This document shows, in pieces, positions 4,804 to 63,702 of a stretch of DNA of 64,000 nt; the first letter of the stretch is position 1; each line of letters begins with the position of its first letter. The stretch lies in assembly GCF_026968045.1 (NCBI RefSeq), contig NZ_JAPVBQ010000001.1, forward strand, positions 372,001 to 436,000. Reading direction: 5' to 3'. The position numbers were made by a program, and so were the translations under genes. The stretch comes from Modestobacter sp. VKM Ac-2977 (GTDB taxonomy: Bacteria > Actinomycetota > Actinomycetes > Mycobacteriales > Geodermatophilaceae). The notes beneath the pieces are model-generated. The model did not search any database. It saw only the letters and a program-made list of their open reading frames with translations, and was not told where the DNA came from.

Positions 4804-4953
4804 GGTGCTGGAGCTCCTCGTCCGATCCGAGCCGGGCTGGCACTCCGCCCCGGCGACTGCCAATGATGCGCCGCGCGGCCCGGCCACGTCCATGTCTGCC
4901 GGGCGAGTGTGACGTTCGCGTCGGAGCGGGCCTGCGCGATGGCCCCTGGACGC

Positions 4954-5907: not shown

Positions 5908-5966
5908 GCGCGGAGTGTGGCAGGCCGGCGGTCGGATGCGCGGCAGTTGCCGGATACCGTTCGACC

Positions 5967-6449
5967 GTGGCCTCCCCGTGGCTCGACGAGCAGCAACAGC
6001 GCACCTGGCGGGCCTGGCTGGCCGTCGCCGAGCTGCTGCCGCGCACGCTCGACGCCCAGCTCCAGCGGGACGCCGGCCTCACCCACGCGGCCTACGTGGT
6101 GCTCGCGATGCTGTCCGAGGCACGGGGCGGGAACCTGCGGATGAGCGACCTGGCGCGCACCGCGAACCAGTCGCAGAGCCGGCTCTCGCACACCGTGGCC
6201 CGACTGGAGGAGCGGGGGTGGGTGCGCCGCGAGAAGGCAGCCGAGGACCGCCGCGGCAACGTGGCCGTGCTCACCGACGCCGGCCGGGACGTCGTGGAGC
6301 GGGTCGCGCCCGGGCACGTGGCCGCCGTCAAGGAAGGGGTGTTCGCCGCGCTGACCCCCGCGCAGACGCAGGCGCTGGAGGAGGCGCTCGGCGCCGTCCT
6401 CGACCGGCTGGACCCCGACGCCACGCTGCGGGCGCACGAGCCCGGCTGA
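5967..6449 (+). CDS. MarR-family transcriptional regulator
   Basis: A 160-residue winged-helix regulator. The recognition helix region (LARTANQSQSRLSHTVARLEERGWVRREKAAEDRRGN) and the beta-wing (VAVLTDAGRDVVE) are typical of MarR/DNA-binding dimers that respond to small ligands. The GTG start at 5967 gives a normal N-terminal dimerisation helix. The LLM oxidoreductase starts 43 bp downstream on the same strand and is the likeliest co-transcribed partner or target. No clear operator was found. Confidence 0.88.
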   Translation: MASPWLDEQQQRTWRAWLAVAELLPRTLDAQLQRDAGLTHAAYVVLAMLSEARGGNLRMSDLARTANQSQSRLSHTVARLEERGWVRREKAAEDRRGNVAVLTDAGRDVVERVAPGHVAAVKEGVFAALTPAQTQALEEALGAVLDRLDPDATLRAHEPG

Positions 6450-43309: not shown

Positions 43310-44061
43310 CCGCGCTGACGCCCCCCGTGGCCAGTCCCGATGGGGCGATCACCGACACGATCCGCCGGTTGGCCGGGGCCCAGAAGGGCGCCCAGGGTGC
43401 TCCGGCCTACTCCCGGTTCGTGAACCGGAGGCTGGGGCGGGTGCTCGCCGCCCTGGCGTTCCACGCCCGGCTCACCCCGAACGCCGTCACCGGGATCAGC
43501 GCGGTGTGCACCTTCGGCGGCATCGCCGTGCTCGCGCTGGTGCCCCCGTCCTGGCCGATGGGCGTGGCGGTCGCGCTGCTGCTGGTCGTCGGGTACGCCT
43601 TCGACTCCGCCGACGGCCAGCTGGCGCGGCTGCGGGGCGGCGGCTCCCCGGCCGGGGAGTGGCTGGACCACATGGTGGACGCGCTCAAGATCGCCAGCCT
43701 GCACCTCGCGCTGCTGATCGGCTGGTACCGCTTCGAGTACGTCGAGCGCAGCTCGTGGTTGCTGCTGCCGCTGGCCTTCTCGGTCGTGTCGGTGGTGTTG
43801 TTCTTCGCCACCCTGCTCAACGAGTCCCTGCGCGCCCAGCACGGCGCCCGCACCCGGGCGGCGTCGACCGGAGAGCGGCCCAGCGTGCTGCGTTCGTTGC
43901 TGGTCGCCCCCACCGACTACGGGGTGCTCTGCCTGGTCTTCCTGCTGCTCGGGGCGCCCTCGGCGTTCCTCTGGGCCTATGCGTTGCTCGCGGCGGTCAC
44001 GGCGGGCTTCCTGGCCCTCGCCGCCGTCCGGTGGTTCCGAGAGATGGGCAGGTTGACCTGA
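43306..44061 (+). CDS. CDP-alcohol phosphatidyltransferase family membrane enzyme
   Basis: A 251-residue integral membrane enzyme with about six helices. The family signature D(x)2DG(x)2AR(x)8G(x)3D(x)3D is complete: DSADGQLARL, then GEWLDHMVD. These enzymes move a phospho-alcohol from a CDP-activated donor to an acceptor. In this locus the role may be polymer decoration or a special lipid anchor rather than bulk phospholipid synthesis. It is translationally coupled at both ends (GTGA with the GT4 gene, TGATG with the next). A cytidylyltransferase gene at the right edge could supply the CDP substrate. Confidence 0.87.
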   Translation: MTALTPPVASPDGAITDTIRRLAGAQKGAQGAPAYSRFVNRRLGRVLAALAFHARLTPNAVTGISAVCTFGGIAVLALVPPSWPMGVAVALLLVVGYAFDSADGQLARLRGGGSPAGEWLDHMVDALKIASLHLALLIGWYRFEYVERSSWLLLPLAFSVVSVVLFFATLLNESLRAQHGARTRAASTGERPSVLRSLLVAPTDYGVLCLVFLLLGAPSAFLWAYALLAAVTAGFLALAAVRWFREMGRLT

Positions 44062-45025: not shown

Positions 45026-48000
45026 ATGGACGCAACACCGAGGACGCCCAGCCGGGTGTGGATCGCCGGACTGCTGAGCAGCCTGCTCTTCGCAGGAGTG
45101 CTCGGGGGCCTGCTGCCCGGTGGGGTGGCGCGCGCGGACACCGCTCCGCTGGAGCCCACCGCAGCGGCCACCCCCACGACGGTCGCCGCCGATGCGCTGC
45201 CCACCGTCCAGATCAACGGTGTCGCCTGGTCGCAGGTCGTCGTCGGCAACACCGTCTACGTCGCCGGGGACTTCTCCACCGCGCGCCCAGCAGGTGCGCC
45301 GGCCGGCACGCAGGAGACGGTCCGGAACAACCTCCTGGCCTACGACATCCGGAGCGGGGAGCTCATCACCTCCTTCGCCCCCGACCTCAACGGCAAGGCG
45401 CTGGTGGTGACCGCCTCGCCAGACGGCTCGCGCATCTACGTCGGCGGCGACTTCGACAAGGCCAACGGCCAGACCCGCTACCGGGTGGCTGCCTACAGCA
45501 CCGCCACCGGTGAGCTCATCGCGAACTTCCGCCCGAGCTTCAACGCCCGGGTGTACGCACTCGCCGCCACCGACGACACCGTCTACGTCGGTGGGTCCTT
45601 CACGGCCATCGGCTCGGCCAGCCGTGAGCGGCTGGCAGCGGTGGCCGCGTCCAACGGCGCGCTGCTCCCCTGGGCGCCGGTGCCCGGTGTCGGCTCGACG
45701 GACGGGAACGACCTGCCCCGGATCCGGGACGCGAACGGGCAGTACGTCGAGAACCCGCAGAACGCCAAGACGAGCAACATCGTCCTGGCGCTGGTGGTGA
45801 CCGGCGGGGGCGACCAGGTCGTCGCGGCCGGACGTTTCGACACGCTCAACGGCACCCGGTCGACCGGCGTCGGTGCGCTGGACCCGGTGACCGGCGCGAC
45901 GCGGCCCTTCGCGGTCGGCCAGCTCCTCACCAACCAGGGTGTCAACTCCGCCGTCTACAGCCTCAGCACCGACGGCACCAACGTCTACGGCACCGGGTAC
46001 GACTACTACGGCCCCGGCAACCTCGAGGGCTCCTTCGGCGCAACCGCCGACGGTGGCGTGCTGACGTCGATCAACGACTGCCACGGCGACACCTACTCCA
46101 GCTTCCCGGCCAACGGCGCGCTCTACCTGGCGTCCCACGCCCACGTCTGCAGCAACATCGGTGGCTTCCCCGAGACGGAGCCGCAGACCAAGCAGTACGC
46201 GACCGCGGTGACCACGGTCGCCACCGGCACCGTGGGCTCGGGCACCATCGACGACGCGCGCACCCTCATGGGCAAGCCGGCGGGGTCCTTGCTGCCCTGG
46301 TTCCCGACGTTCACCGCCGGCACGTACACCGGTCAGTCGCAGGCAGGGTGGTCGGTCACCGGCAACGACCAGTACGTCGTCTACGGCGGCGAGTTCCCGA
46401 AGGTCAACGGGGCCGCGCAGCAGGGGCTGGTCCGGTTCGCCGTCCCCTCGATCGCGCCCAACCGTGTCGGCCCGAGCTCAACGGGGCTCACCCCGACCGT
46501 CGTCGCCCTGTCGGCCGGCACCGCTCGGGTCAGCTGGACGACGAGCCACGACCAGGACAACGAGAACCTGACCTACCGCGTCCACCGCGACGGCGACACC
46601 ACCAGCCCGGTCCACGAGGTCACCCGGGCGTCGACCTTCTGGAACACCACGTCGCTCGCCTTCGTCGACACGGGCCTCAGCGGCGGTGAGCACACCTACC
46701 GCGTCAGCGTCACCGACCCGATGGGCAACCAGGTCACCTCCGGGTGGGTGTCGGTCGAGGTGACGGCGGGCAGTCCGTCGGAGCCGCGGCCGTACGCCCA
46801 GGCGGTCGTCGCCGACGGCGCCCAGGACTACTGGCCCCTCGGCGAGCGCTCCGGTTCCATCGCCTACGACTACGCCGGAGGGTCTGACCTGGCGGTGAAC
46901 TCCCGGGTGTTCCTGAACCACCCGGGTGCGCTCAGCGGTGACCCGGACACGTCCTTCGGCTTCGGCGGCCAGGGCCTGGCCGCGACCACCACGGCGATCC
47001 CCGGACCCAACACCTTCGCCGTCGAGGCATGGTTCCAGACCACCTCCCGCAGCGGCGGGAAGGTCGTCGGGTTCGGCAACCGGAACACCGGTGACAGCAG
47101 CAGCTACGACCGGCACGTCTACCTGGACGGCGCAGGGCGGGTCGTCTTCGGGGTGTACCCGGGCAGCGAGCAGAAGATCAGCAGCTCGGCCGGCTACAAC
47201 AACGGCGCCTGGCACCATGTCGTGGCCTCCCTCAGCCCGGCCGGCATGGCCCTCTACCTCGACGGCGAGCTGATCGGCACCAACCCGGCGGTCACAACGG
47301 GGCAGCCCTACAGCGGCTACTGGCGCATCGGCGGCGACAGCAGCTGGGGCGGCACCGGCAAGTACCTGACCGGGCGCATCGACGAGGTGGCCGTCTACCC
47401 GTCGGCCCTGTCGGCCGACGTGGTGACCAGCCACTACACGCTGGGGGCAACGGGGAAGGCGACCAACGTCGCCCCGGTGGCGTCGTTCACCTCCTCGGCG
47501 ACCTTCCTGGACGCCACCCTCGACGGCTCGGCCTCGGCCGACCGGGACGGCAGCATCGCGTCCTACGCATGGGACCTCGGCGACGGCGCGACGGCGACCG
47601 GGCGCACCACGACGCACACCTACTCGGCCGCCGGCACCTACCCGGTGACACTGACGGTGACCGACGACGACGGTGCCCGGTCGGTGGAGACCGGCGCCGT
47701 CACGGTGACCGCCCCGCCGGCGAACGTGGCGCCGTCGGCGGTGTTCAGTTCGTCGGTGGTGGGGCTGGTGGCGTCGTTCGACGGTGCGGGGTCGGCTGAT
47801 CCTGATGGGTCGGTGGCGTCCTACGACTGGGACTTCGGTGACGGTGCGAGTGGTGCCGGTGCGGCGGTGGAGCACACCTATGCCGAGGCGGGTGTGTACC
47901 AGGTCGTGCTGACGGTGACCGATGACGACGGTGCCACCGGCAGGGTCGAACAGTCGGTGACGGTGTCGGCCCCGGCGGAGCCGCCGGTCCCCGAGGTCCC

Positions 48001-49666
48001 CGAGGTCCCCGAGGTTCCCGAGGTCCCGGCGGGGGAGCCGCTGGCGGTGGACGGTTTCGAGCGGACGGTGGCCAGTGGGCTGGGTCAGGCGGAGACCGGG
48101 GGTGCGTGGTGGGTCTCCGGCGGGGTGACGTCGGTGTCGGAGGGCGCGGCGGTCCTGGAGGTGCCCAAGGCCGGTGGGTCGAGCTCGGTGTGGCTGAACT
48201 CGGTGTCGGTGCAGGACGTGGCGTTGGAGACGACGTTCTCGCTGGAGCAGGCGCCCACCGGTGGTGGGACGTACGCCTATGTCACTGCACGGCGGACGCC
48301 GGCGAACTTCTACCGGGGTGTGCTGAAGTTCCTGGCCGATGGCCGGGTGACGGTCGGGGTGTCACGGGTGGTGGCCAACAAGGAGACGACGTTGCGGTCG
48401 GTGACCGTTCCGGACCTGACGTACGTGCCGGGCACGGTGCTGCGGGTGCGGTTGGACGTCAGTGGCAGCGGCACCACCACGCTGGGCGCCAAGGTGTGGG
48501 TGGACGGCACGGCTGAGCCGGTCGACTGGCAGGTCAACGCCACCGACGACACCGCGGAGCTGCAGGCGGCCGGCGGGGTCGGGGTCTCGACCTACGTGTC
48601 GGGTTCGGCCACCGTCGTCCCGGTGCGGATGCGCGTCGACGACTTCTGGGCCGGCCCCGCCGGCACGGTGCCCGCCGCAGGGGAGGTCCCGGCGGAACCG
48701 GCGAACGTGGCGCCGTCGGCGGTGTTCAGTTCGTCGGTGGTGGGGCTGGTGGCGTCGTTCGACGGTGCGGGGTCGGCTGATCCTGATGGGTCGGTGGCGT
48801 CCTACGACTGGGACTTCGGTGACGGTGCGAGTGGTGCCGGTGCGGCGGTGGAGCACACCTATGCCGAGGCGGGTGTGTACCAGGTCGTGCTGACGGTGAC
48901 CGATGACGACGGTGCCACCGGCAGGGTCGAACAGTCGGTGACGGTGTCGGCCCCGGCGGAGCCGCCGGTCCCCGAGGTCCCCGAGGTCCCCGAGGTTCCC
49001 GAGGTCCCGGCGGGGGAGCCGCTGGCGGTGGACGGTTTCGAGCGGACGGTGGCCAGTGGGCTGGGTCAGGCGGAGACCGGGGGTGCGTGGTGGGTCTCCG
49101 GCGGGGTGACGTCGGTGTCGGAGGGCGCGGCGGTCCTGGAGGTGCCCAAGGCCGGTGGGTCGAGCTCGGTGTGGCTGAACTCGGTGTCGGTGCAGGACGT
49201 GGCGTTGGAGACGACGTTCTCGCTGGAGCAGGCGCCCACCGGTGGTGGGACGTACGCCTATGTCACTGCACGGCGGACGCCGGCGAACTTCTACCGGGGT
49301 GTGCTGAAGTTCCTGGCCGATGGCCGGGTGACGGTCGGGGTGTCACGGGTGGTGGCCAACAAGGAGACGACGTTGCGGTCGGTGACCGTTCCGGACCTGA
49401 CGTACGTGCCGGGCACGGTGCTGCGGGTGCGGTTGGACGTCAGTGGCAGCGGCACCACCACGCTGGGCGCCAAGGTGTGGGTGGACGGCACGGCTGAGCC
49501 GGTCGACTGGCAGGTCAACGCCACCGACGACACCGCGGAGCTGCAGGCGGCCGGCGGGGTCGGGGTCTCGACCTACGTGTCGGGTTCGGCCACCGTCGTC
49601 CCGGTGCGGATGCGCGTCGACGACTTCTGGGCCGGCCCCGCCGGCACGGTGCCCGCCGCGGCGTGA
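45026..49666 (+). CDS. Giant secreted multidomain protein (propeller, Fn3, LamG, PKD, duplicated jelly-roll-like modules)
   Basis: A 1546-residue exported protein. The signal peptide is VWIAGLLSSLLFAGVLGGLLPGG. Residues ~55-480 form a delta-60/PQQ-like propeller with VYVGG/VYVAGDF strands. A fibronectin-III-like domain (~490-585) and a LamG/concanavalin-type domain (~590-800, FAVEAWFQT..., WHHVVASLS) follow, then a PKD domain (~815-895). Two copies of [PKD + PEVPEVPEVP linker + ~200-residue beta module (DGFERTVASGLGQ...VRMRVDDFWAG)] cover ~898-1217 and ~1225-1544. No sortase motif or LGFP repeat ends the protein. Likely a surface adhesin or polymer-binding protein, made within the polysaccharide locus. 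Confidence 0.82.
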   Translation: MDATPRTPSRVWIAGLLSSLLFAGVLGGLLPGGVARADTAPLEPTAAATPTTVAADALPTVQINGVAWSQVVVGNTVYVAGDFSTARPAGAPAGTQETVRNNLLAYDIRSGELITSFAPDLNGKALVVTASPDGSRIYVGGDFDKANGQTRYRVAAYSTATGELIANFRPSFNARVYALAATDDTVYVGGSFTAIGSASRERLAAVAASNGALLPWAPVPGVGSTDGNDLPRIRDANGQYVENPQNAKTSNIVLALVVTGGGDQVVAAGRFDTLNGTRSTGVGALDPVTGATRPFAVGQLLTNQGVNSAVYSLSTDGTNVYGTGYDYYGPGNLEGSFGATADGGVLTSINDCHGDTYSSFPANGALYLASHAHVCSNIGGFPETEPQTKQYATAVTTVATGTVGSGTIDDARTLMGKPAGSLLPWFPTFTAGTYTGQSQAGWSVTGNDQYVVYGGEFPKVNGAAQQGLVRFAVPSIAPNRVGPSSTGLTPTVVALSAGTARVSWTTSHDQDNENLTYRVHRDGDTTSPVHEVTRASTFWNTTSLAFVDTGLSGGEHTYRVSVTDPMGNQVTSGWVSVEVTAGSPSEPRPYAQAVVADGAQDYWPLGERSGSIAYDYAGGSDLAVNSRVFLNHPGALSGDPDTSFGFGGQGLAATTTAIPGPNTFAVEAWFQTTSRSGGKVVGFGNRNTGDSSSYDRHVYLDGAGRVVFGVYPGSEQKISSSAGYNNGAWHHVVASLSPAGMALYLDGELIGTNPAVTTGQPYSGYWRIGGDSSWGGTGKYLTGRIDEVAVYPSALSADVVTSHYTLGATGKATNVAPVASFTSSATFLDATLDGSASADRDGSIASYAWDLGDGATATGRTTTHTYSAAGTYPVTLTVTDDDGARSVETGAVTVTAPPANVAPSAVFSSSVVGLVASFDGAGSADPDGSVASYDWDFGDGASGAGAAVEHTYAEAGVYQVVLTVTDDDGATGRVEQSVTVSAPAEPPVPEVPEVPEVPEVPAGEPLAVDGFERTVASGLGQAETGGAWWVSGGVTSVSEGAAVLEVPKAGGSSSVWLNSVSVQDVALETTFSLEQAPTGGGTYAYVTARRTPANFYRGVLKFLADGRVTVGVSRVVANKETTLRSVTVPDLTYVPGTVLRVRLDVSGSGTTTLGAKVWVDGTAEPVDWQVNATDDTAELQAAGGVGVSTYVSGSATVVPVRMRVDDFWAGPAGTVPAAGEVPAEPANVAPSAVFSSSVVGLVASFDGAGSADPDGSVASYDWDFGDGASGAGAAVEHTYAEAGVYQVVLTVTDDDGATGRVEQSVTVSAPAEPPVPEVPEVPEVPEVPAGEPLAVDGFERTVASGLGQAETGGAWWVSGGVTSVSEGAAVLEVPKAGGSSSVWLNSVSVQDVALETTFSLEQAPTGGGTYAYVTARRTPANFYRGVLKFLADGRVTVGVSRVVANKETTLRSVTVPDLTYVPGTVLRVRLDVSGSGTTTLGAKVWVDGTAEPVDWQVNATDDTAELQAAGGVGVSTYVSGSATVVPVRMRVDDFWAGPAGTVPAAA
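47717..49659 (+). repeat. Tandem intragenic duplication with 981-bp period, apparently identical over 962 bp
   Basis: 47717-48678 and 48698-49659 appear to be the same sequence base for base, offset by 981. They encode a PKD domain, the PEVPEVP linker and a ~200-residue beta module. A short non-identical spacer (48679-48697) separates them. Third-position identity throughout, including silent sites, points to a recent duplication or ongoing gene conversion, or to a sequence-assembly effect. Compared with neighbouring text the repeat uses more GTG/GTC-rich GGT codons. Confidence 0.9.
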
Positions 49667-49670
49667 GGAC

Positions 49671-49709
49671 GCCGGGGCAGGCCCGGGGTCGCCCCGTGCC
49701 TGCCCCGGC
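49671..49709 (+). terminator. Hairpin terminator after the giant gene
   Basis: CCGGGGCAGGC (49672-49682) pairs perfectly with GCCTGCCCCGG (49698-49708), with an inner CGGGG/CCCCG stem. It begins 5 bp after the stop. No T-run follows. The remaining ~160 bp to the flippase gene shows no further feature. Confidence 0.78.
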
Positions 49710-49871
49710 CGGGCAACCACCCCTCTTCGGATGAGGTCACCCACCGGAGAGGGGTCGGTGGCGCCCGGCGCTGGCAGCCTGGACGTGCGCGCCCACGGCC
49801 ACCGACCCGCGGCGCAGCCGCGCGGCAGCACGTCCGGCGGCGGACGTCGACAGTGGGGGAGGGCGGGCTGC

Positions 49872-51344
49872 GTGAGTCGACTGCAGGCGCCCGGGCCGCG
49901 ACCGGAGCTCACCGCAGCGGCTGCGCAGCCTGACGAGACCGGGGCGGACGGGCGCAGCGTCTGGGCCGGCATCGTCCGCAGCGGAGGCATGCGACTGCTG
50001 GTTCTCCCGGTCTCGGCCTTGCTCGGCATCGTGGTGACCCGGCTGGTCATCGACAACTACGGCGAGGCGGCCTTCGCCCAGTACGGGTTGTTGGTCGGCC
50101 TCGGGGCACTGCTGCCGTTCGCCGACCTGGGGATGTCGGCTGCGGTGATGAACGCCGTCGGTGCTGCCCGGTCCCCGGGGACCGACGACCACGTCCGGGC
50201 GGTCCTGCTCACCGCCGTCCGCGTGCTGATCGGATCGGCCGCTGTGCTCTCGGCGGTGGCCGTGACCGTCACGCTGCTGGGACTCTGGCCGGCCCTGCTG
50301 GGGCCGGCGCTGCTGCCGGACACCGGCCCGCTGGCGGCGATGGCCTGCCTGCTGTTCATCGCGGTGGCCATGCCGATGGGCATCGGCCAGCGGGTGCTGT
50401 CCGGACTGGGGCGCAACCACGTGTCCATCGCCCTGTTCGGCCTGCAGACGCCGCTGGTCCTCCTCGTGCTCGTCGGGTTCCTGTGGGTGGGGGTCCCGGC
50501 CGGCTCGGCCATGGCGGTCGTCCCGTACGGCACGACCTTCGTCCTCGCGATCGTCTGCACGATCGTGGCGGCCCGAGCGATCCGACCGGCAGCACGCGAC
50601 GTCCTGCGCCGGGTACGGCACGTCCGCACCCAGCACGGTGCCCGGGTCTTCGGCGTCGCCTGGCCGATGCTGGTGCAGATGATCGCGCTGCCGATCGCGA
50701 TGCAGAGCGACCGGATCGTGCTCAGTCACCGCGCGGGAGTCGGCGAGCTCGCCGAGTACAACCTCGCCGCCCAGATGTTCGTACCGATCTGGGCGGTGGT
50801 GAGCTCCGCCGGGGTCACGCTGTGGCCGGTGTTCGCCCGTGCCCGGGCTCGCGGCGTCCGTCACTCCCCGGTGCCGATGGCCTGGGCCTTCGCTGGGCTG
50901 GCCGCCGGGATGGCGGTGCTGGTCGCGGCGGCATCGCCGTTCCTCGCCGACCTGGCCTCTGGCGGCAGGATCGAGCTCGGTGGCCTGCTGGTCGGGAGCT
51001 TCGCGGTGCTGATGGTCCTCCAGGGGGCGAAGTACCCCCTGGGCATGTACATGACCGATGCCCGCGGGCTCCGCTTCCAGGCGCTGATGATCGTGGCGAT
51101 GCTGCCACTGAACGTCGGGCTGTCGTGGTGGCTGGCCGGCCCGCTCGGAGCGGCCGGTCCGGTGCTCGGCTCGGTCATCGGGGTGGCCGCTTCCCAGGTG
51201 CTGGGCAACCTGCTGTACGTCCGCCGGGCACTGCGGGCCGCTGGGCGCGATGCGGCCCCGGCCGGGCCCGAGCCGGAGGCGGCAGTGGCTGCCGACCGGC
51301 CCGACCGCGTGTCCGTCGCCGACGAGGAGGGGCGGTCGCGGTGA
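49872..51344 (+). CDS. Wzx-like polysaccharide flippase
   Basis: A 490-residue MATE/MOP-superfamily membrane protein with about 12-14 helices. The N-terminal segment (MRLLVLPVSALLGIVVTRLVIDNYGEAAFAQYGLL split across TM1) and a central VFGVAWPMLVQMIALPIAMQSDRIVLS are typical of lipid-linked oligosaccharide flippases. It would turn undecaprenyl-linked repeat units to the outer face. GTG 49872 has GAGGG 8 nt upstream. The stop overlaps the next start (GTGA), opening a three-gene coupled unit. Confidence 0.88.
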   Translation: MSRLQAPGPRPELTAAAAQPDETGADGRSVWAGIVRSGGMRLLVLPVSALLGIVVTRLVIDNYGEAAFAQYGLLVGLGALLPFADLGMSAAVMNAVGAARSPGTDDHVRAVLLTAVRVLIGSAAVLSAVAVTVTLLGLWPALLGPALLPDTGPLAAMACLLFIAVAMPMGIGQRVLSGLGRNHVSIALFGLQTPLVLLVLVGFLWVGVPAGSAMAVVPYGTTFVLAIVCTIVAARAIRPAARDVLRRVRHVRTQHGARVFGVAWPMLVQMIALPIAMQSDRIVLSHRAGVGELAEYNLAAQMFVPIWAVVSSAGVTLWPVFARARARGVRHSPVPMAWAFAGLAAGMAVLVAAASPFLADLASGGRIELGGLLVGSFAVLMVLQGAKYPLGMYMTDARGLRFQALMIVAMLPLNVGLSWWLAGPLGAAGPVLGSVIGVAASQVLGNLLYVRRALRAAGRDAAPAGPEPEAAVAADRPDRVSVADEEGRSR

Positions 51345-53512
51345 CGGACGGGCCTGAGGACAGGACGCCGGGCAGCATCCCGGCGGGTGCCGACGTGCGT
51401 GTCCCCGAGCAGGACCCGGACCCGGCGGGGCGGCTGGGCATCGTGGTCGTCAACTACGGGTCGCACGACCTGCTCGAGACCCACCTGGGCGCGATGGACC
51501 TCGGTGGGTTGCCCGTCCACGTCGTCGTGGTGGACAACTTCTCCACCGCCGCCGAGCGGGAGGTCGTCGCTGCACTGGCGGGTGCCCGCGGCTGGACGTT
51601 CGTCGGTCTCCCCGACAACCGGGGCTTCGGCGCCGGCGTCAACGCCGGCGTCCGGGCCGCGCGAGCCGCGGGCTGCGTCACCTTCCTGCTGCTCAACCCG
51701 GACGCATCAGTCGCTCCTGGGGTGGTCGGGGAGCTGCGACGGCACAGCCTCCGGGAGCCCATGGCGCTGATCAGTCCCCGGATCGTCGCCCCGGACGGGA
51801 CGGTGTTCTTCGACGGGGCCGAGCTGTTCACCGACAGCGGCCGGTTGCGTGGCCGGCGCACCGGGACGACGCCGTCCGGGCCGGGGAGGACGCGGCCGAG
51901 CGGTCCGGCGACGGAGTGGGTGACCGGCGCGTGTCTGGTGGTCCACGACCAGCTGCTGCGCCGAGCCGGCGAACTGGACGAGTCCTTCTTCCTCTACTGG
52001 GAGGACGTGGAGTTCAGCCACCGCTGTCGCGCGGCCGGGGGCGCTCTCGTGGTGCGCTCGGACCTGGAGGCGGTGCACGACGCAGGCGGTACGCAGGGGC
52101 CGACGCCGGGCCGGGCCAAGTCCGCGGTCTACTACCGCTACAACTGCCGCAACCGGCTGCTGTTCGCTGCCCGGTGGTCCTCCCGCCGTGAGCTGCTGCG
52201 CTGGATGTGGGCGACGCCGGCCGTGAGCTGGGAGGTCCTGCTGCGTGGGGGACGACGCCAGCTGCTCCACCAGCCGGCGCTGGCGCTGGCTGCGATCCGC
52301 GGGTCCGCGAGTGGTCTGGTCCTTGCTGCGGGCGCGCTCCTGCGGGGCCGGCGGCGCACCGCCCGTACGGGCCCCTCGGTGCTCGTGGTGCACCCGGGCG
52401 CAGAGCTCTACGGCTCCGACCGCATGCTCGTGGAGTCGGTCGCGGGGCTCGTCGACCGCGGTGAGCGGGTCACGGTCGCGCTCCCGGTCGCCGGGCCACT
52501 GGTCGGCGAACTGGAGGCGACGGGTGCGACCGTCGTCCGCTGCCGGATGCCGGTCCTGCGCAAGAGCGCGACCACCCCGCGAGGCGCTGCGGCGCTGCTG
52601 GCGGACGCTGCGGCCGGGCTCCTGCCTGCCTGGCGGCTGCTGCGGCGCACCGGCCCCGGGCCGGTGTACGTCAACACCCTCACCATCCCGCTCTGGCCGA
52701 TGCTGGCGCGGCTGGTCGGCCGGCACGTCACGCTGCACGTCCACGAGGCCGAGGACGGTGCGCCGGCGCCGGTGCGCCGGGCCCTGGCGCTGCCGGCGGT
52801 GTTCGCCCAGCGCGTGCTGGTGAACAGCCGGTACAGCCGCGACGTGCTCGCCGCCTCGCTGTCGCGCACCGCGAGCCGGGCCGTCGTCGTGCCCAACGGG
52901 GTCGTCGGTCCCGAGGTCACCGTCCCTCCCCGTCCCCGGCTGTCGACGCCGGTCCGGCTGCTGTTCGTCGGGCGGCTGTCGCCGCGCAAGGGGCCCCAGG
53001 TCGCCCTCGCCGTGCTCGCCGAACTGTCCCGGCGCGGCGTGGACGCCCGGCTCACGCTGGCCGGCTCGACGTTCCCCGGGTACGAGTGGTTCGAGGCTGA
53101 CCTCCGGGCCCAGGTGGAGCGTGCGGAGTCCGCCCCACGGGTCGACTTCCTGGGCTTCGTCCCCGACGTCCAGGCGGTGCTGAGCGACTCCGACGTCGTC
53201 CTGGTCCCGTCCGTGCTGCCGGAGCCGTTCGGCAACACGGCGGTCGAAGCGGTCCTGGCCGCCCGGCCGGTGATCGTGAGCGCCGCCGGTGGCCTCCCCG
53301 AGGCGATCGACGGCCACACGTCCGCGCAGGGGGTGCCGCCGGGCGACGTCGCTGCCTGGGCTGATGCGGTGCAGCGGGTGATCGCTGCCTGGCCGCGCTT
53401 CGCCGCTGCCGCCCAGGTCGACGCCGGCCAGGCCCGCGCGCGTCACGCGCCGGCCCGCTACCGCGCCGAGGTCGCACGCCTGATCACGATCCCCGGAGAG
53501 GAACGCCGATGA
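51341..53512 (+). CDS. Bifunctional GT2-GT4 glycosyltransferase
   Basis: A 723-residue fusion. Residues ~30-290 form a rhamnosyltransferase-type GT2 domain (IVVVNYGSHDLLETHL, LLNPDASVAPG as DxD region, ESFFLYWEDVEFSHRCR). Residues ~345-715 form a GT4/GT-B domain (VLVVHPGAELYGSDRML, RLLFVGRLSPRKGPQVALAVL, PEPFGNTAVEAVLAARPVI with the EX7E-like region). Two sugar additions could be coupled in one protein. GTG 51341 overlaps the flippase stop; the stop overlaps the next ATG (ATGA). Confidence 0.9.
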   Translation: MTDGPEDRTPGSIPAGADVRVPEQDPDPAGRLGIVVVNYGSHDLLETHLGAMDLGGLPVHVVVVDNFSTAAEREVVAALAGARGWTFVGLPDNRGFGAGVNAGVRAARAAGCVTFLLLNPDASVAPGVVGELRRHSLREPMALISPRIVAPDGTVFFDGAELFTDSGRLRGRRTGTTPSGPGRTRPSGPATEWVTGACLVVHDQLLRRAGELDESFFLYWEDVEFSHRCRAAGGALVVRSDLEAVHDAGGTQGPTPGRAKSAVYYRYNCRNRLLFAARWSSRRELLRWMWATPAVSWEVLLRGGRRQLLHQPALALAAIRGSASGLVLAAGALLRGRRRTARTGPSVLVVHPGAELYGSDRMLVESVAGLVDRGERVTVALPVAGPLVGELEATGATVVRCRMPVLRKSATTPRGAAALLADAAAGLLPAWRLLRRTGPGPVYVNTLTIPLWPMLARLVGRHVTLHVHEAEDGAPAPVRRALALPAVFAQRVLVNSRYSRDVLAASLSRTASRAVVVPNGVVGPEVTVPPRPRLSTPVRLLFVGRLSPRKGPQVALAVLAELSRRGVDARLTLAGSTFPGYEWFEADLRAQVERAESAPRVDFLGFVPDVQAVLSDSDVVLVPSVLPEPFGNTAVEAVLAARPVIVSAAGGLPEAIDGHTSAQGVPPGDVAAWADAVQRVIAAWPRFAAAAQVDAGQARARHAPARYRAEVARLITIPGEERR

Positions 53513-56852: not shown

Positions 56853-58895
56853 CTACCCCGCCAGGTGACGCCCCAGGACCGTGCTCAGCGAGCGCGCGTA
56901 GACCGACGTGATGTGGTTGGAGTCGCGGTACACGAGGACGCCGCCGATCACCGAAGGGCACCGACCGTCGAAGCAGAAGCTGTCCCGCAGGTCGACGACG
57001 GCGGCGCCGGTCCGCTCGGCCGCCATCACCAGTGCGTCGTCCGGGAGAGCCCGGGCTTCGCTGATGGTGCAGGTATCGCCGCTGGCCACGCAGCTCGGCG
57101 GGTCCGACAGGCCGGCCTTCTCCGGCTCGGGGGTGTCGGCCAACGCGTACACCTGGGTCCCGGCGGCGATCAGCGGCTCCCACGCCGCCGCGAAGCCTCG
57201 CACGGCGGCCGCGGTGTCCGCGTGCGATCCGTAGCCGAGCCCTGACCTGGCGGAGGTGATGACCACGTCGGGGGTCTCGGACCTGAGCCGTTCGGCCACC
57301 TCCCGGTTGAACGCCTGGCAGTTGGCCGAGCCCAGGCCGACGGCGTAGGCGCACCCCGACTTGACGTAGGTCACGAGACGCCAGCCCCGCTCCTGGGCGA
57401 TCCGGGTGAGGGCCGGCATCCACTGGTTGGCGTGCGAGTCGCCGACGAGGGCGACCCGGGTCGACGACGGGGCGTCGGAGCCGTACTCACAGCGGATGAC
57501 CTCTGCCCGGGCCGCAGCCTGCTGGCAGTTCTGCTCGGTGGCGTCCCTGGTGGCGATCATCGGGTCCGGCACCACACCGTCCGGGGTCCGGCCGGCACAG
57601 CCGGCCTCCAGGGAGGCTGCGCCCACGCAGGGCAGGTCCGCAGCGGTGAAGCGCGTCAGCTCGGCCTGGGCGCTGTCGATCCGGGCCTGGCTGACACCGA
57701 ACGCCACGCCGCCCAGGCCACCGACGACCAGCATCCCGGCGACCGCGCCCACCAGCACCGGGCGCGTCCCGCGCGGGACTGCGGCGCGCGCTGCGCCGCG
57801 CCGGGGGCCACCCCCGCGGAACGGGTCCTCCACGTACTCCTTCGACAGCCAGGCGATCGGGATGGCCGCGGCCACGACCGCGACCCGGAGCGGGATGGGC
57901 AGTTCGTAGCTCGGGCCTCCGACGAGCACCGGGACGAGCACGATGAGCGGCCAGTGCCACAGATAGACGGAGTAGGAGATGTCGCCGATGAACTGGACGG
58001 GTCGGAGATTGCCGATCCGCGACGGGGAATGGCGACCGGGCACGTCCCCCGACATGATGACGGCAAGGGCGCCCAACACCGGGACGAGGGCGATGAACCC
58101 GGGGAACGGGGTCTCGCCGGACAACAGGGCGGCGGAGCCGGCGATCGCGGTCAGACCGGTCCAGCTCAGCGCCGACCTCGCCCACGCGGGGGCCCGCAGG
58201 ACCGGCACGGTCAGTGCGACCAGCCCGCCCAGCCCGAACTCCCACGCGCGGGTCGGCGTGACGAAGTAGGCCCACGAAGGGCTCTGCTGGGTCTGGTGGA
58301 CCGAGTAGGCCAGCGAGATCACCGTGATCGCCGCCACGGCCCCGATGACGGCCCCACGTGCGCGTCCGCGCTTTGCGCCCAGCACGCTGGCGGCCAGGAG
58401 CAGCAGAGGCCACAGCGCGTAGAACTGCTCCTCGACGGAGAGCGACCAGAAGTGCTGGACAGGACTGGCGTGCGACCCTGCCGCCAGGTAGTCCACCGAG
58501 GTGGCGGCCAGCGTCCAGTTCTCCACGTAGAAGGCGGCGCTGACCAGTTCGCGGCCGATCGTGTTCCAGAGCGTCTGCGGGAGCGCCACCAGGGTGACCA
58601 CGCCGACCACCAGCAGCACGGTCAGTGAGGCCGGCAACAGTCTCCGGACGCGTCGCGCGTAGAACCCGAGGAGGGAGAACGGCGCGTCGGCGGCGAGGCC
58701 GCGGCTGATGTGCAGGGTGATGAGGAAACCGGAGACGACGAAGAAGACGTCGACGCCGACGTAGCCGCCCGGCAGCAGGCGTGGCTCGAGGTGGTAGACG
58801 ACGACCAGCGTCACGGCGACCGCGCGCAGGGCCTGCAGTTCCCGTCTCACCCGGTGGCCGTCAACGGATCTGTCGACGTCTCCCACGATCGGCAC
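56853..58895 (-). CDS. OafA-like acyltransferase with C-terminal SGNH domain
   Basis: A 680-residue protein. Residues ~15-370 form an acyltransferase-3 membrane domain (RELQALRAVAVTLVVVYHL with the R-x10-H motif, GGYVGVDVFFVVSGFLIT, SLSVEEQFYALWPLLL, WHWPLIV). Residues ~430-680 form an extracytoplasmic SGNH domain (VALVGDSHANQWMPAL, catalytic DSNHITS block near the end). Such fused enzymes O-acetylate surface polysaccharide. GTG 58895 is used; no ribosome site is visible. An AT-rich palindrome lies 9 bp upstream. Four Cys in the SGNH part may form disulfides. Confidence 0.92.
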   Translation of the reverse strand: MPIVGDVDRSVDGHRVRRELQALRAVAVTLVVVYHLEPRLLPGGYVGVDVFFVVSGFLITLHISRGLAADAPFSLLGFYARRVRRLLPASLTVLLVVGVVTLVALPQTLWNTIGRELVSAAFYVENWTLAATSVDYLAAGSHASPVQHFWSLSVEEQFYALWPLLLLAASVLGAKRGRARGAVIGAVAAITVISLAYSVHQTQQSPSWAYFVTPTRAWEFGLGGLVALTVPVLRAPAWARSALSWTGLTAIAGSAALLSGETPFPGFIALVPVLGALAVIMSGDVPGRHSPSRIGNLRPVQFIGDISYSVYLWHWPLIVLVPVLVGGPSYELPIPLRVAVVAAAIPIAWLSKEYVEDPFRGGGPRRGAARAAVPRGTRPVLVGAVAGMLVVGGLGGVAFGVSQARIDSAQAELTRFTAADLPCVGAASLEAGCAGRTPDGVVPDPMIATRDATEQNCQQAAARAEVIRCEYGSDAPSSTRVALVGDSHANQWMPALTRIAQERGWRLVTYVKSGCAYAVGLGSANCQAFNREVAERLRSETPDVVITSARSGLGYGSHADTAAAVRGFAAAWEPLIAAGTQVYALADTPEPEKAGLSDPPSCVASGDTCTISEARALPDDALVMAAERTGAAVVDLRDSFCFDGRCPSVIGGVLVYRDSNHITSVYARSLSTVLGRHLAG

Positions 58896-59031: not shown

Positions 59032-61440
59032 CTACGGGCGAGTGGGCACGGGTGTGGGCGCAGGCTCGACCTCGGCGGTCCCGTCCGCGGAGCTCGGCCG
59101 GAGGACGGCGCCGGAGCCCTCGACGGCGCGGCCCGGCGTCCTCCGCAACGGCAGCACCAGGCCGAGCGCCAGCGCGACGTCGGGCAGGTTGGCCGGGAGC
59201 GGACCGAAGGCCAGGTACCAGAGGCCCATCAGCAGCAGGAAGCACGTCAGCCCCGACGCCTCCCGCCGGCTCAGCAGCCGGGCGGAGCTGCGGATCAGCA
59301 GGGCGGCCATGACCAGCCCGAGGAGCAGGCCGACCGGACCCGCGTTCGACCAGAGGTCGGCCACGATCGAGTGCAGCTCGAACCGGCCGGCGAACATGTA
59401 GTTCTCGATGTACCCCTCGCCGGTGGGGATGCGGGTCACGGCGAAGCCCGCCTTGGCCAGGGCGATGTCGGCGGCGGTGGGCACGGTGCCGAGCCCGAAG
59501 CCCAGCGGGTGCTGGTGCATGAGCGCCCAGGTCGCCGTCCACTCCGGGCGGCCGCCGAGCAGCAGCGTCCCGGTCTGCTCGATCTGGGTGATGGTGCGTG
59601 CCTGGACCTCGGCGCCCAGTGCGCCGGAGACCAGCAGCTCGCGCATCGCGCTGTACGCGCCGACGGCCATGGCCGCGAGCAGGCCCGCGGTCGCCAGCGG
59701 CCTGGCCTGTCGTCCGGTCGTCGGCCGGGCCTGCCACAGCACGAGGGCACCGGCCATGACGCAGAAGCCGAAGGCGCTGCGCGCGTCGTGCACGATGTCG
59801 AGGAGGGCGAGGCCGGCCAGGGCGGCGATCGTCACCCCCGGGCGTCGGTGGGCACTGGCCAGGGCGAGGACGGTGATGGTCAGGGGCAGGGCGAGCTCGA
59901 ACTTGTAGGGGTTGTCCGACGCAGACGCGTCCATGAGCCCGCTCGCCAGCTGGCCGACCCCGTAGGCGACGCCGACGGCCGGGAACGGGAGCACGGTGCG
60001 GGCCCAGAGGAGCAGCCCGATGGCACCGACGGCCGCGAGCACCTGGAAGCTGGTCTCGGCCGCCTCCCGCCGGGCGAAGTCGTGGTCCACGCTGGACCAG
60101 CCGGCCAACAGCAGGCCGGACAGGAGGGACAGTCCGGCCAGCGCGGCGATCAGCATCGCGCCGCGGGATCGCCGGAGGACCCCGATCCACACCGGCAGCA
60201 GGACGACTGCTGCGAGCAGTGTCGTGTTCGTCGCGGCGGGGAGGTCGTGGGCGAGGCCGGTGGCCAGCAGCGCGACCACGGCGGTGACCCGGGTGGAGCG
60301 GGTGACCCCCTCACGGGGCGCGCCGGCCACCGAGCGGAGCGGTGCCCGGAGGTCCTCTCCGCGGAGCACGGCAGCCATGCGGGCGCGCCGGCCGGCGCGC
60401 GGAGCAGGTCGGCGGTCGAGCACGATGCCCAGGAGCGGGACCGGAGCGGTCGACAACGCTGTCACCACCCGCTCCAGCTGGCGGCGGGTGGTCCGGCGGC
60501 TGTCCACAGCCACCAGCACCCCGGCGAGGTCGGTACCGGTGCGCGCGACGTCCCCGATCGTCGGGACGTGCACGACCCCGGCCGTACCACCGCGGACGGC
60601 GGCCAGGTCCAGGTCTCGAGCCAGCTCTGTCGATCCCGGCGCGGTCCCGACGAGGGCGACCCGCGCGTCGGTGGCCGGTGAGAGCTCCGGCAGCGCACGG
60701 AGCAGCCCGGCGACCCGCTCCAGGCTGGCCGCTCGCGCGTCGCGCCCCGTCCTCCGGTCGACCGGCCACCTCCGGGCCCGGCGGTGGACCTCGGCGAGGA
60801 CGGGCAGCCCGGTCGCCGCGGAGACGTCGCCGGCGGTGCGCACCCGGGGGCGGAGGGACTCGGCCAGGCCGACGGCCAGCACGGCGGTACCGCCGCCCAG
60901 CACGATCCCGAGGGCGGTCAGGCGGCGGGTGTCCGGAGACGCTCGATACCGGGGTTCTCGTGCCGGGGAGATGGTGGTGACGTCGAGGACGGAACCTCCC
61001 GACCCGGCGTACAGGGTCGGGGTGAGCTCCTCCAGTTCCTCGCCCACCCGTGTCGCGATGCGCTCGGCCTGGACCGGGTCGGCCGCGTCCACCCCGATCT
61101 GCAGCACCGACGTGTCGTCGAGGACCTCGACGTCGACGGCGTCGGCGAGCTCACCGGGTCCGGCAGTCAGCTCGAGGTCGTCGATCACCGACTGCAGGAC
61201 GGCGGGTGAGGTGGCCGCTGCCGCGAGCGAGGGGAGCAGTTGCTCGCCGACCAGCGAGCTGTACCCGAGCGTGCTGGGGGTCTCGGCACGGTCCACGGAG
61301 ACGTAGACGGTGGTCTCGGCGTGGAAGACGGGCGGGGAGACGGACGCCAGGAGGAAGGACGCCCCGCCACCGACGGCTGCCGCCGCCAGGACGCTCGCCC
61401 AGCACCGGTGGACAGCGCTGACATAGTCCTTCGGCTGCAC
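59032..61440 (-). CDS. Wzz / pseudo-tyrosine-kinase / Wzy-type polymerase fusion
   Basis: An 802-residue membrane protein with three parts. Residues ~1-220 are a Wzz chain-length domain with two helices (WASVLAAAAVGGGASFLL, ALGIVLGGGTAVLAVGLAE) and SPDTRRL in the usual Pro-rich position. Residues ~255-345 resemble the CpsD/BY-kinase NTPase fold (VALVGTAPGSTELARDLDLAA ... LVAVDSRRTTRRQLERVV ... LLGIVLDRR), but the GK[ST] P-loop and Walker B are absent. Residues ~385-770 have about 11 helices and a polymerase/ligase-like loop (HQHPLGFGLGTVP). GTG 61440 has GAGGAGG 7 nt upstream. Likely polymerises the repeat unit with built-in length control; inferred. Confidence 0.78.
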   Translation of the reverse strand: MQPKDYVSAVHRCWASVLAAAAVGGGASFLLASVSPPVFHAETTVYVSVDRAETPSTLGYSSLVGEQLLPSLAAAATSPAVLQSVIDDLELTAGPGELADAVDVEVLDDTSVLQIGVDAADPVQAERIATRVGEELEELTPTLYAGSGGSVLDVTTISPAREPRYRASPDTRRLTALGIVLGGGTAVLAVGLAESLRPRVRTAGDVSAATGLPVLAEVHRRARRWPVDRRTGRDARAASLERVAGLLRALPELSPATDARVALVGTAPGSTELARDLDLAAVRGGTAGVVHVPTIGDVARTGTDLAGVLVAVDSRRTTRRQLERVVTALSTAPVPLLGIVLDRRPAPRAGRRARMAAVLRGEDLRAPLRSVAGAPREGVTRSTRVTAVVALLATGLAHDLPAATNTTLLAAVVLLPVWIGVLRRSRGAMLIAALAGLSLLSGLLLAGWSSVDHDFARREAAETSFQVLAAVGAIGLLLWARTVLPFPAVGVAYGVGQLASGLMDASASDNPYKFELALPLTITVLALASAHRRPGVTIAALAGLALLDIVHDARSAFGFCVMAGALVLWQARPTTGRQARPLATAGLLAAMAVGAYSAMRELLVSGALGAEVQARTITQIEQTGTLLLGGRPEWTATWALMHQHPLGFGLGTVPTAADIALAKAGFAVTRIPTGEGYIENYMFAGRFELHSIVADLWSNAGPVGLLLGLVMAALLIRSSARLLSRREASGLTCFLLLMGLWYLAFGPLPANLPDVALALGLVLPLRRTPGRAVEGSGAVLRPSSADGTAEVEPAPTPVPTRP

Positions 61441-61684
61441 CGAGTGACCTCCTCTCCCTCGGTGGCGATCTTCCCTGCCCGAGCGCCGCGGACAGGTGCG
61501 TCGGCCGAAAGAGGGCGCAGCGCGTGACCCGATGGGATGAGCGCGCCCGTCCGGCCGGGCGACGCAGCCGTCCGGGGGGTCGACACTCGCTGGGTCCGGG
61601 CTGGACCCGGACCGAGGTGGCCGCCCGGATGACCGCGGTGTGCACCAGTCGATGGCTCGCGTCGACGCGGGATGGGGGAAGGCA

Positions 61685-63121
61685 ATGGGCCCCGGGGGGC
61701 TGACCGAGATCGTGCGGACCGGGTGGCGTGTCATCGCTGCGCTGACGGTGGCCGGCCTGCTGGCCGGACTCTGCTGGTCGCTGGCCGCCGAGCGCACCTA
61801 CCGGGCCACCTCGAGCGTCTTCTTCTCCCTGCAGTACGGGGACTCCGCGGCCGACCTGGTCCAGGGATCGACGTACACGCAGAACCAGGTGACGTCCTAC
61901 GCCCGGCTGGCGACGACCCCGGTCGTCCTCCAGCCGGTCATCGACCGGCTGGAGCTGGGGACGACGGCACCTGAACTGGCTCGGCAGGTGGAGGCGTCCG
62001 CGCCCGTCGACACGGTCATCGTCGAGGTCACCGTCACCGGGTCGTCACCGGCACAGAGCGCCCGGATCGCCGACGCGGTCGTCGTCACGCTCTCCGAGAC
62101 CGTGGAACAGCTCGCGCCCGAGGGGGCCGACGGGGAGCCGACCGTGCGGGCCACGACGGTGGCCCCCGCCGAGGTGCCGCGGTCGGCTGCCACCCCGAAC
62201 ACGCCGCTCGACCTGGCCACCGGTCTGGCCGTCGGGCTCCTGCTGGGCCTGGGCTGGGTGTGGGCGAGGAGCACCCTGGACAACCGGGTCCGCGATGCCG
62301 CCACCCTCGCCGAGCTGACCGCGCACCCGCTGATCGGGACCATCGCCGCGCACGTCGGCCGCGCGACGCACCCGGTCGTGATGGAGACCGAGCCGCGGGG
62401 TGGCCAGGCCGAGGGGTTCCGACAGCTGCGCACCAACCTGCAGTTCCTCGACCTGCCGGCGCTGACCGGCTGGGACACCGAGAGCGGCAGCCGGACGATG
62501 GCCGTGACCTCCTCGTTGGCGGCCGAGGGCAAGTCCACGGTGGCGGTCAACCTCGCGGCGGCGCTGGCCGAGACCGGTGCCCGGGTGCTCCTCGTCGACG
62601 CCGATCTCCGCCGGCCGTCCGTGGCGGAGATGCTCGGGCTGGAGGGCTCGGCGGGCCTCACCACGGTGCTGCTGGGGCGGGCAGCACCGGCAGAGGTCGT
62701 GCAGGACTGGGGGATGTCCGGCCTGCAGGTGCTGACGTCGGGTCCGCTGCCACCCAACCCGGCCGAGCTGCTCGGGTCGCCGGCCATGACCGGGCTGCTC
62801 CGGGCCCTGCGGACGGACTACGACCACATCGTCCTCGACACCGCGCCACTGCTGCCCGTCGCCGACGGAGCCGTCCTCTCCCGCGCGGTCGACGGCGCCG
62901 TGCTCGTCGTCAACGCGACCAAGGCACGCCGCCCGCAGGTGGTGGAGAGCCTGCAGGTCCTGGAGCAGGTCGGCGCCACGGTGCTCGGTCTGGTGCTCAA
63001 CCAGGTCGACCGGGAGGAGCGGGTCTACGACTACCGCCCGGCCGAGGACGCCGACGTGCTGGCGGCCCCGGTCCTGGTGCGGGGCATCGTGACTGCGCCG
63101 ACTCCCGGTCCGTCGAGGTGA
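61685..63121 (+). CDS. Polysaccharide biosynthesis tyrosine autokinase (Wzz + BY-kinase)
   Basis: A 478-residue bacterial tyrosine kinase. Two helices bracket an extracytoplasmic Wzz domain (residues ~15-200). The cytoplasmic kinase has Walker A SLAAEGKST (~278-285), Walker A' VLLVDADLRRP and Walker B HIVLDTAPLLPVAD. The C-terminal tyrosine cluster is small (VYDY). BY-kinases control polymer length and export by cycles of autophosphorylation. ATG 61685 has GGGGGAAGG just upstream; GTG 61640 is possible. The stop overlaps the phosphatase start (GTGA). It is divergent from the Wzz-fusion gene. Confidence 0.92.
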   Translation: MGPGGLTEIVRTGWRVIAALTVAGLLAGLCWSLAAERTYRATSSVFFSLQYGDSAADLVQGSTYTQNQVTSYARLATTPVVLQPVIDRLELGTTAPELARQVEASAPVDTVIVEVTVTGSSPAQSARIADAVVVTLSETVEQLAPEGADGEPTVRATTVAPAEVPRSAATPNTPLDLATGLAVGLLLGLGWVWARSTLDNRVRDAATLAELTAHPLIGTIAAHVGRATHPVVMETEPRGGQAEGFRQLRTNLQFLDLPALTGWDTESGSRTMAVTSSLAAEGKSTVAVNLAAALAETGARVLLVDADLRRPSVAEMLGLEGSAGLTTVLLGRAAPAEVVQDWGMSGLQVLTSGPLPPNPAELLGSPAMTGLLRALRTDYDHIVLDTAPLLPVADGAVLSRAVDGAVLVVNATKARRPQVVESLQVLEQVGATVLGLVLNQVDREERVYDYRPAEDADVLAAPVLVRGIVTAPTPGPSR

Positions 63122-63702
63122 CGGGTGCCGCGGCCGCAGCGGCCGAGAGCCCCTCGTTCGCCGTCCTCCTCGTGTGCACGGCCAACATCTGCCGGTCCCC
63201 GGCCGCTGAAGCGCTGCTCCGCGCGGAGCTGGCCGCGGCAGACGACGTGGAGGTGGCCAGTGCCGGCCTGACCGCCCGGGTGGGCAGCGCGATCGCGCCG
63301 GAGATGGCGAACGCACTGGCGGTGCCCGTCACCGGTTTCCAGGCGCGGCAGGTGACCTCGGAGGTGGTGGGCGGCGCGGACCTGGTCCTCACCATGACAC
63401 GGGAGCAACGTGCTGCGCTCGTGGCCCTGGTCCCCGCCGCGGTCCGGCGGACGTTCACCCTCAAGGAGTTCGCGGCTCTGGTCGCACTGGCCGCCGGTCG
63501 CGCACGGGTCTCCGGCGCGTCGACGCGGCAGCGACTGAGCTCCGCGACGGCCGAGGCGCCACGCTTCCGCAGCGCCCGTGTCGCTGGGGCCGAGGACGAC
63601 ATCGCCGATCCGTACGGCGGGCGTCCCGCGGACTACTCGCGCGCCGCAGGGGAGATCGAGCAGGCGGTCGCCGCGCTGGTCTCCGCCGTCGGCCCGTCGT
63701 AG
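63118..63702 (+). CDS. Low-molecular-weight protein tyrosine phosphatase
   Basis: A 194-residue LMW-PTP. The P-loop is VCTANICRSPAAEALL (C-x5-R-S) and the general acid is in DIADPYGG near the C-terminus. An Ala-rich leader precedes the fold, and a ~35-residue insertion (RARVSGASTRQRLSSATAEAPRF region) comes before the acid loop. It is coupled to the tyrosine kinase by a GTGA overlap and most likely dephosphorylates its C-terminal tyrosines, as Wzb/Wzc pairs do. Confidence 0.92.
   Translation: MTGAAAAAAESPSFAVLLVCTANICRSPAAEALLRAELAAADDVEVASAGLTARVGSAIAPEMANALAVPVTGFQARQVTSEVVGGADLVLTMTREQRAALVALVPAAVRRTFTLKEFAALVALAAGRARVSGASTRQRLSSATAEAPRFRSARVAGAEDDIADPYGGRPADYSRAAGEIEQAVAALVSAVGPS

Follow-up and report, generated by a model that had tools for sequence, protein, structure and literature searches.

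In the window, a stretch of 64,000 nt from Modestobacter sp. VKM Ac-2977, we found one open reading frame of 802 codons that joins a Wzz-type co-polymerase (PCP-2) domain, a degenerate BY-kinase domain and a predicted Wzy-type membrane domain. The preliminary description had proposed a triple fusion of Wzz, dead BY-kinase and Wzy in one chain, and as an architecture this was borne out by domain searches, profiles and fold comparison. The three parts occur in the order proposed, while their edges shift to residues 1-200, 201-346 and 381-765, with a linker at 347-380 (Table 1). Judged from its sequence, it probably represents a natural fusion between a PCP-2 protein and the polymerase under its control, joined by a decayed BY-kinase domain, with the active kinase supplied in trans.

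Table 1. Positions in the window of the fusion gene, its parts and selected neighbours
Feature	Positions	Strand	Evidence
Whole fusion ORF, 802 aa	59032..61440	(-)	GTG start at 61440, stop 59032-59034; full-length orthologues, alignment
Shine-Dalgarno AGGAGGT	61447..61453	(-)	6 nt before the fusion GTG start
Wzz/CpsC-type PCP-2 domain, residues 1-200	60841..61440	(-)	Acidic part between hydrophobic segments 13-35 and 174-196
Degenerate BY-kinase (pseudokinase) domain, residues 201-346	60403..60840	(-)	Without P-loop; profile and fold matches
Variable linker, residues 347-380	60301..60402	(-)	23-45 aa across 13 members; pLDDT <50 at 363-377
Putative Wzy/O-antigen-ligase-type polymerase domain, residues 381-765	59146..60300	(-)	R631-X15-G647 and H690 invariant, 21/21 sequences
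Pro/Ala-rich tail, residues 766-802	59035..59145	(-)	No tyrosine, 13/13; pLDDT <50 at 769-802
Divergent neighbour, Wzz and intact BY-kinase	61640..63121	(+)	EGKST, DADLRRP, IVLDTAP, VYDY near C-terminus
LMW protein tyrosine phosphatase domain	63163..63477	(+)	LMWPc match; ORF ends 63702
Wzx-type flippase ORF, same cluster	49443..51344	(+)	Polysacc_synt, E 3.1e-9

Reading frame and Wzz-type part

The fusion ORF is real. Its GC3 was 0.88-0.99 in each of ten 80-codon windows, and the reading frame was open in all 12 complete members; the alignment row of one of them (G021) contains a single TGA, while its ORF runs uninterrupted as far as its own stop. A frameshift or an assembly accident as source of the fusion was rejected, since the architecture is present in 13 genomes. 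An internal restart was likewise rejected, because none of the six internal ATG, GTG or TTG codons at residues 330-419 had a Shine-Dalgarno match of at least four bases.

Residues 1-200 show two transmembrane segments round an outer domain and a Wzz-type sequence, as in PCP-2 proteins, with scores below the curated cut-offs. TIGR01006 matched residues 34-218 at E 1.5e-19 (70 bits against a curated 296) and was found at E<=1 in 12 of the 13 fusion members. Pfam Wzz gave E 2.2e-4 in the window protein (21.9 bits, just under the cut-off of 25.5 bits) and was detected at E<=1 in 10/13 orthologues. Between the two hydrophobic segments, residues 36-172 are acidic (7 K/R, 23 D/E); after the second one, residues 194-380 are basic (32 K/R, 19 D/E).

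The full-length AlphaFold model had a pLDDT of 76.6 (66.9-70.5 for the other four models). When this model was compared with the PDB by Foldseek, Wzc accounted for the best 27 rows, and 22 of the 23 further rows listed were KpsE. The TM-scores of the Wzc rows were low (0.25-0.30 by query), partly because Wzc is without the polymerase part.

The BY-kinase-like and Wzy-type domains

The middle part was compared with PDB sequences as a profile of residues 196-376 alone, built from 13 sequences (profile A3). BY-kinases provided nine of the 17 matches up to E 10 and all of the six best, namely three S. aureus CapA/CapB chimeras, VpsO, BceF and Wzc, at E 7.2e-4 to 0.11 (three below 0.001). Most of the matched PDB stretches fell in the latter half of the profile, the best ones being 101-143 or 71-147 of 170. 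With a whole-protein profile the kinase matches were weaker (best E 0.014), and 7/7 rows were BY-kinases. A profile-profile comparison of the middle part with ten neighbour kinases resulted in a partial alignment of 42 columns (probability 87.7). The kinase resemblance appears to rest mostly on the last strand-helix-strand.

An AlphaFold model of the middle part alone (pLDDT 83.8, pTM 0.75) was then subjected to Foldseek. Four PDB matches had E<=0.001, all of them CapA/CapB chimeras (6e-5 to 3e-4; TM-score by query 0.58-0.65). The best 50 rows contained 38 BY-kinases and 12 other proteins, including a spliceosome helicase and transcarbamylases, with a best E of 0.0044. A structural likeness to BY-kinases, set beforehand as the check on the middle part, was thus obtained both by profile (best E 7.2e-4) and by Foldseek (CapAB).

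The preliminary description had also stated that the middle part is without P-loop and Walker B, and the alignment agrees. The P-loop pattern was absent from the pseudokinase of all 13 members; Walker B was judged not present from the alignment rather than by pattern search. Walker A, A' and B, as expected of an active BY-kinase, were not found in the fusion middle part. The one DADLR string among the fusion members lies, by alignment, in the linker of a single member. No tyrosine was found in the pseudokinase of 11/13 members. A C-terminal tyrosine cluster was not present, the tail being free of tyrosine in all 13, and the linker carries one tyrosine in one member. Helix 235-248 was taken by eye as the ring-contact helix (alpha2). 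The EX2RX2R motif was not found at this helix, and such strings occurred only before it, in two of the 13 members. The role of this motif in ring contact is taken from PMC3795738. By profile, model and motif search, the domain has the BY-kinase fold without the catalytic motifs, hence a BY pseudokinase. Mean pairwise identity among the members is 54% in the polymerase part and 38% in the pseudokinase. The latter is near the 40% of the Wzz part, which suggests that the domain is kept as a fold, not as an enzyme.

For the C-terminal part, Pfam Wzy_C gave E 0.0099 in the window protein (16.1 bits, below the cut-off of 31.7 bits) and was detected at E<=1 in 6/13 fusion members, with a best E of 5.8e-7. 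R631, G647 (R-X15-G) and H690 were invariant in the 13 fused and eight stand-alone homologues. In related ligases, R and H are an active pair. Wzy polymerases have 10-14 TM helices and RX10G/RX15G loop motifs (PMC12004945), and R631-X15-G647 looks like the RX15G motif of these loops. After residue 380 the model contains 11 helices of at least 16 residues, compared with only about five segments in the hydropathy scan. A stand-alone homologue searched against Pfam had no match at 1e-5. The profile A5, built from six fused rows and two stand-alone ones, retrieved kinases only, via the fused rows; neither it nor the best 50 Foldseek rows for the full-length model brought up a solved Wzy or WaaL. 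Based on these features, we predict that the C-terminal domain is a membrane domain of the Wzy/O-antigen-ligase type.

Distribution, neighbouring genes and origin

The preliminary description had suggested a search for the same architecture in other Geodermatophilaceae. It was found in 13 of 112 genomes of this family, four in the genus of the window and nine across three further genera. Twelve of the fusions are complete, and that of G116 is truncated where its contig ends; the orthologues are 42-52% identical to the window protein. A scan of the contigs of 84,980 species with two short patterns revealed ten loci, in Modestobacter, Blastococcus, Geodermatophilus and a Frankiales MAG. A two-pattern scan of viral contigs yielded 23 stretches, none of them a relative. 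In the order sample (E<=1e-25), 7/101 genomes matched, with two same-genus fusions and five stand-alone polymerases. The class sample gave 3/148 genomes, the window and two stand-alone polymerases, and the phylum sample (E<=1e-20) only the window itself among 149. These samples overlap, and scoring covered up to 10, 6 and 6 candidates per genome, respectively. Fusions with other polymerase families would escape these searches. Seven homologues outside Geodermatophilaceae were all stand-alone polymerases (G042, G051, G182, G183, G189, G245 and G298), and one stand-alone homologue lies inside the family (G083). No Wzz domain was found in frame with the stand-alone homologues.

Other long or Wzz-containing ORFs were seen among the loci. 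One genome (G114) has an in-frame ORF of 961 aa (L054:88-2970) with a different Wzy-like membrane domain, followed by Wzz and an intact BY-kinase. This order is the reverse of that in the window fusion, and the polymerase belongs to another family. Counterparts of its parts in G005, G017, G023 and G108 are separate matches; as a single genome shows the joined form, it may reflect a lost stop or a sequencing error. Three long Wzz ORFs (L048, L049 and L052) were rejected as further fusions, since by eye their extra length looks like a non-coding frame. Six Wzz proteins of about 290-465 aa without a polymerase (L019:1492-2724 in G008, L012, L013, L016, L022 and L024), in which a crude pattern found no P-loop, are apparently unfused PCP-pseudokinases. 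They cluster together in the Wzz tree (95/85), and the similar L028 and L029 fall elsewhere.

The gene of the divergent Wzz-kinase starts 199 nt from the fusion. A co-polymerase/kinase gene in this orientation adjoins the fusion in all 12 cases with sequence there, an assignment made by position. An alignment of the kinase part from the window and nine others showed the P-loop in 10/10. At nine fusion loci with 8 kb on the kinase side, the kinase was found in 9/9 and a phosphatase match (E<=1e-10) in 8/9, L065 having no such match at this threshold. The complete divergent BY-kinase/LMW-PTP pair that had been noted next door was confirmed by domain matches, and it is mostly conserved.

The surrounding polysaccharide cluster contains a Wzx-type flippase, several glycosyltransferases and an AT3-SGNH acyltransferase. 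The last (window 56853-58895) adjoins the fusion and perhaps acylates the polymer. The ORF at 50483-53512 combines two glycosyltransferase domains, GT2 at 321-445 and GT4 with its best stretch at 825-967. Its product is probably a two-enzyme glycosyltransferase of about 700 aa, because the first ~290 codons overlap the Wzx ORF. Beside the polysaccharide genes, at 45026-49666, lies a 1546 aa ORF with PKD and laminin-G/concanavalin-like domains; it had matches at E<=1e-10 in seven of ten fusion loci (L061-L070), where PKD repeats may match by kind. A CDP-alcohol phosphatidyltransferase domain (43072-44061) is located close to the cluster.

Trees were computed for the Wzz and Wzy parts and rooted by midpoint only. 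In the Wzz tree (54 rows) the 13 fusions formed one group at 100/100, and the ten neighbour kinases formed a separate group at 99/98. The fusions were again one group at 100/100 in the Wzy tree (21 rows), in which one stand-alone row (L006) begins with additional out-of-frame letters and the branch of L044 is long. In G245, from the same class and another family, a Wzz-kinase gene ends 7 nt before the start of a stand-alone polymerase on the same strand (L086:6216-7562 and 4862-6208), with kinase motifs present by reading. The fusion probably arose from a tandem PCP-kinase/Wzy pair like this one, by loss of the stop with a fitting frame and later decay of the kinase.

Proposed mechanism, alternatives and known systems

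In the proposed mechanism, the C-terminal domain would polymerise lipid-linked repeat units flipped by the Wzx of the cluster. The fused Wzz domain would hold the polymerase inside or at the PCP ring, so that a weak non-covalent contact is no longer needed. The pseudokinase may serve as a cytoplasmic scaffold or spacer, and phospho-cycling would be supplied in trans by the neighbour kinase and phosphatase. Several observations on other systems form the background. The complex of WzzE and WzyE has a ratio of about 8:1 with Wzy inside the ring (PMC10030265), and CpsC/CpsD captures the polymerase CpsH (PMC4574921). The BY pseudokinase EcpK was proposed as a PCP-2 scaffold (PMC12004946), and an interplay of inactive and active kinases was discussed for CapB1/CapB2 (PMC3795738). 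According to a 2025 review, the contact between PCP-2 and Wzy is still to be determined (PMC12220298).

Because an assembly of the fusion alone forces a ratio of 1:1, against the ~8:1 measured for WzzE:WzyE, we propose a mixed ring. Most simply, one or a few fusion subunits would carry the polymerase and the active kinase would provide the other subunits; we see no simpler way to reconcile the two ratios. How many polymerases a ring receives might then be fixed by subunit choice, and phospho-driven disassembly might release or stop the covalently held polymerase; we offer this reading, mixed ring included, tentatively and rate it at somewhat below an even chance. The separate tree groups of fused and neighbour Wzz speak against a mixed ring, and the missing EX2RX2R at the presumed ring helix speaks against ring entry by that contact.

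The same tree groups are what would be expected if each Wzz self-assembled, and the Wzz domains of known PCPs do oligomerise. The fusion might therefore form its own homo-oligomer at 1:1, with the neighbour kinase serving separately or at another step. We regard this as rather unlikely, since the lumen of the WzzE octamer holds one WzyE (PMC10030265), eight polymerases per ring would look crowded, and the PCP-kinase gene accompanies the fusion in every testable case.

That the C-terminal domain is a ligase, which transfers the finished glycan to an acceptor, is unlikely. Wzy_C spans O-antigen ligases and polymerases, which sequence alone cannot separate. The search of the window's own genome for polymerases used PF04932 only, with five matches up to E 0.1, and the cluster may hold a polymerase of another family. 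However, of these five only the fusion lies inside the cluster; the other four are on contig C12 or at a distance of 63 kb or more. Its partner in the same chain is a chain-length regulator, and three of the eight stand-alone homologues adjoin a PCP gene (L071 and L084) or, by reading, a gene that resembles a flippase (L006), which favours a polymerase.

The preliminary description had regarded the middle part as a possible receiver of a phospho-signal. The intact kinase/phosphatase pair beside the fusion could indeed phosphorylate the dead kinase domain and so switch the polymerase, but the distribution of tyrosines (none in the pseudokinase of 11/13 members or in any tail, and one in the linker of a single member) and the position of the EX2RX2R strings do not support this, and we consider it very improbable. 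Phosphorylation at residues other than tyrosine, or in Wzz or Wzy loops, is the possible form left to the idea; a scaffold role is the likelier one. Least probable of all is that the ORF is an operon in disguise which yields two proteins by internal initiation or linker cleavage, for although the linker is variable and modelled with low confidence and unfused Wzy homologues exist, the internal start codons are without Shine-Dalgarno matches and the frame is open in every complete member.

If the mixed ring holds true, no earlier natural PCP-2/Wzy unit with a covalent link is described as far as we could find. A natural fusion argues that PCP-2 and Wzy work side by side, and it hints at a polymerase that enters the membrane behind the position of the kinase. 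Elsewhere in bacteria the partnership of PCP and polymerase is difficult to study; here it resides in one chain, which may be purified and imaged more easily than a weak complex. The fusion is carried by some soil and rock bacteria, and the polymer it would make is probably a surface polysaccharide, with the Wzz part as the presumed setter of chain length. In the accessible parts of the open-licence literature, among the matches listed, we recognised no published Wzz-Wzy fusion or fused pseudokinase. The earlier statement that no enzyme with this architecture has been described stands within that literature, as distinct from subscription papers and domain-architecture databases.

Wzy and Wzz are separate genes in Actinoplanes clusters (PMC13390465). 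The stand-alone Wzy homologues belong to the same polymerase family and share R631, G647 and H690, without the Wzz domain. The enterobacterial common antigen system WzzE-WzyE likewise combines a co-polymerase with a polymerase, in two chains at about 8:1 compared with one chain here (PMC10030265). EcpK with EpsV in Myxococcus xanthus and HfsB with HfsA in Caulobacter have a BY-kinase fold without Walker motifs or a Tyr-rich tail, and a PCP-2 partner (PMC12004946). The fusion is another setting in which a dead BY-kinase fold is retained; in contrast to EcpK and HfsB, which are separate proteins, its pseudokinase sits between the PCP and polymerase domains. Wzc of E. coli (a PCP-2a autokinase) and the split PCP-2b pairs CpsC/CpsD and CapA/CapB have the same layout, a Wzz domain with two TM segments and then a BY-kinase fold; in structure, the whole model matched Wzc best and the middle part CapAB. 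Unlike in these three systems, the kinase of the fusion is dead, shortened and without a Tyr tail, and a whole polymerase domain follows it.
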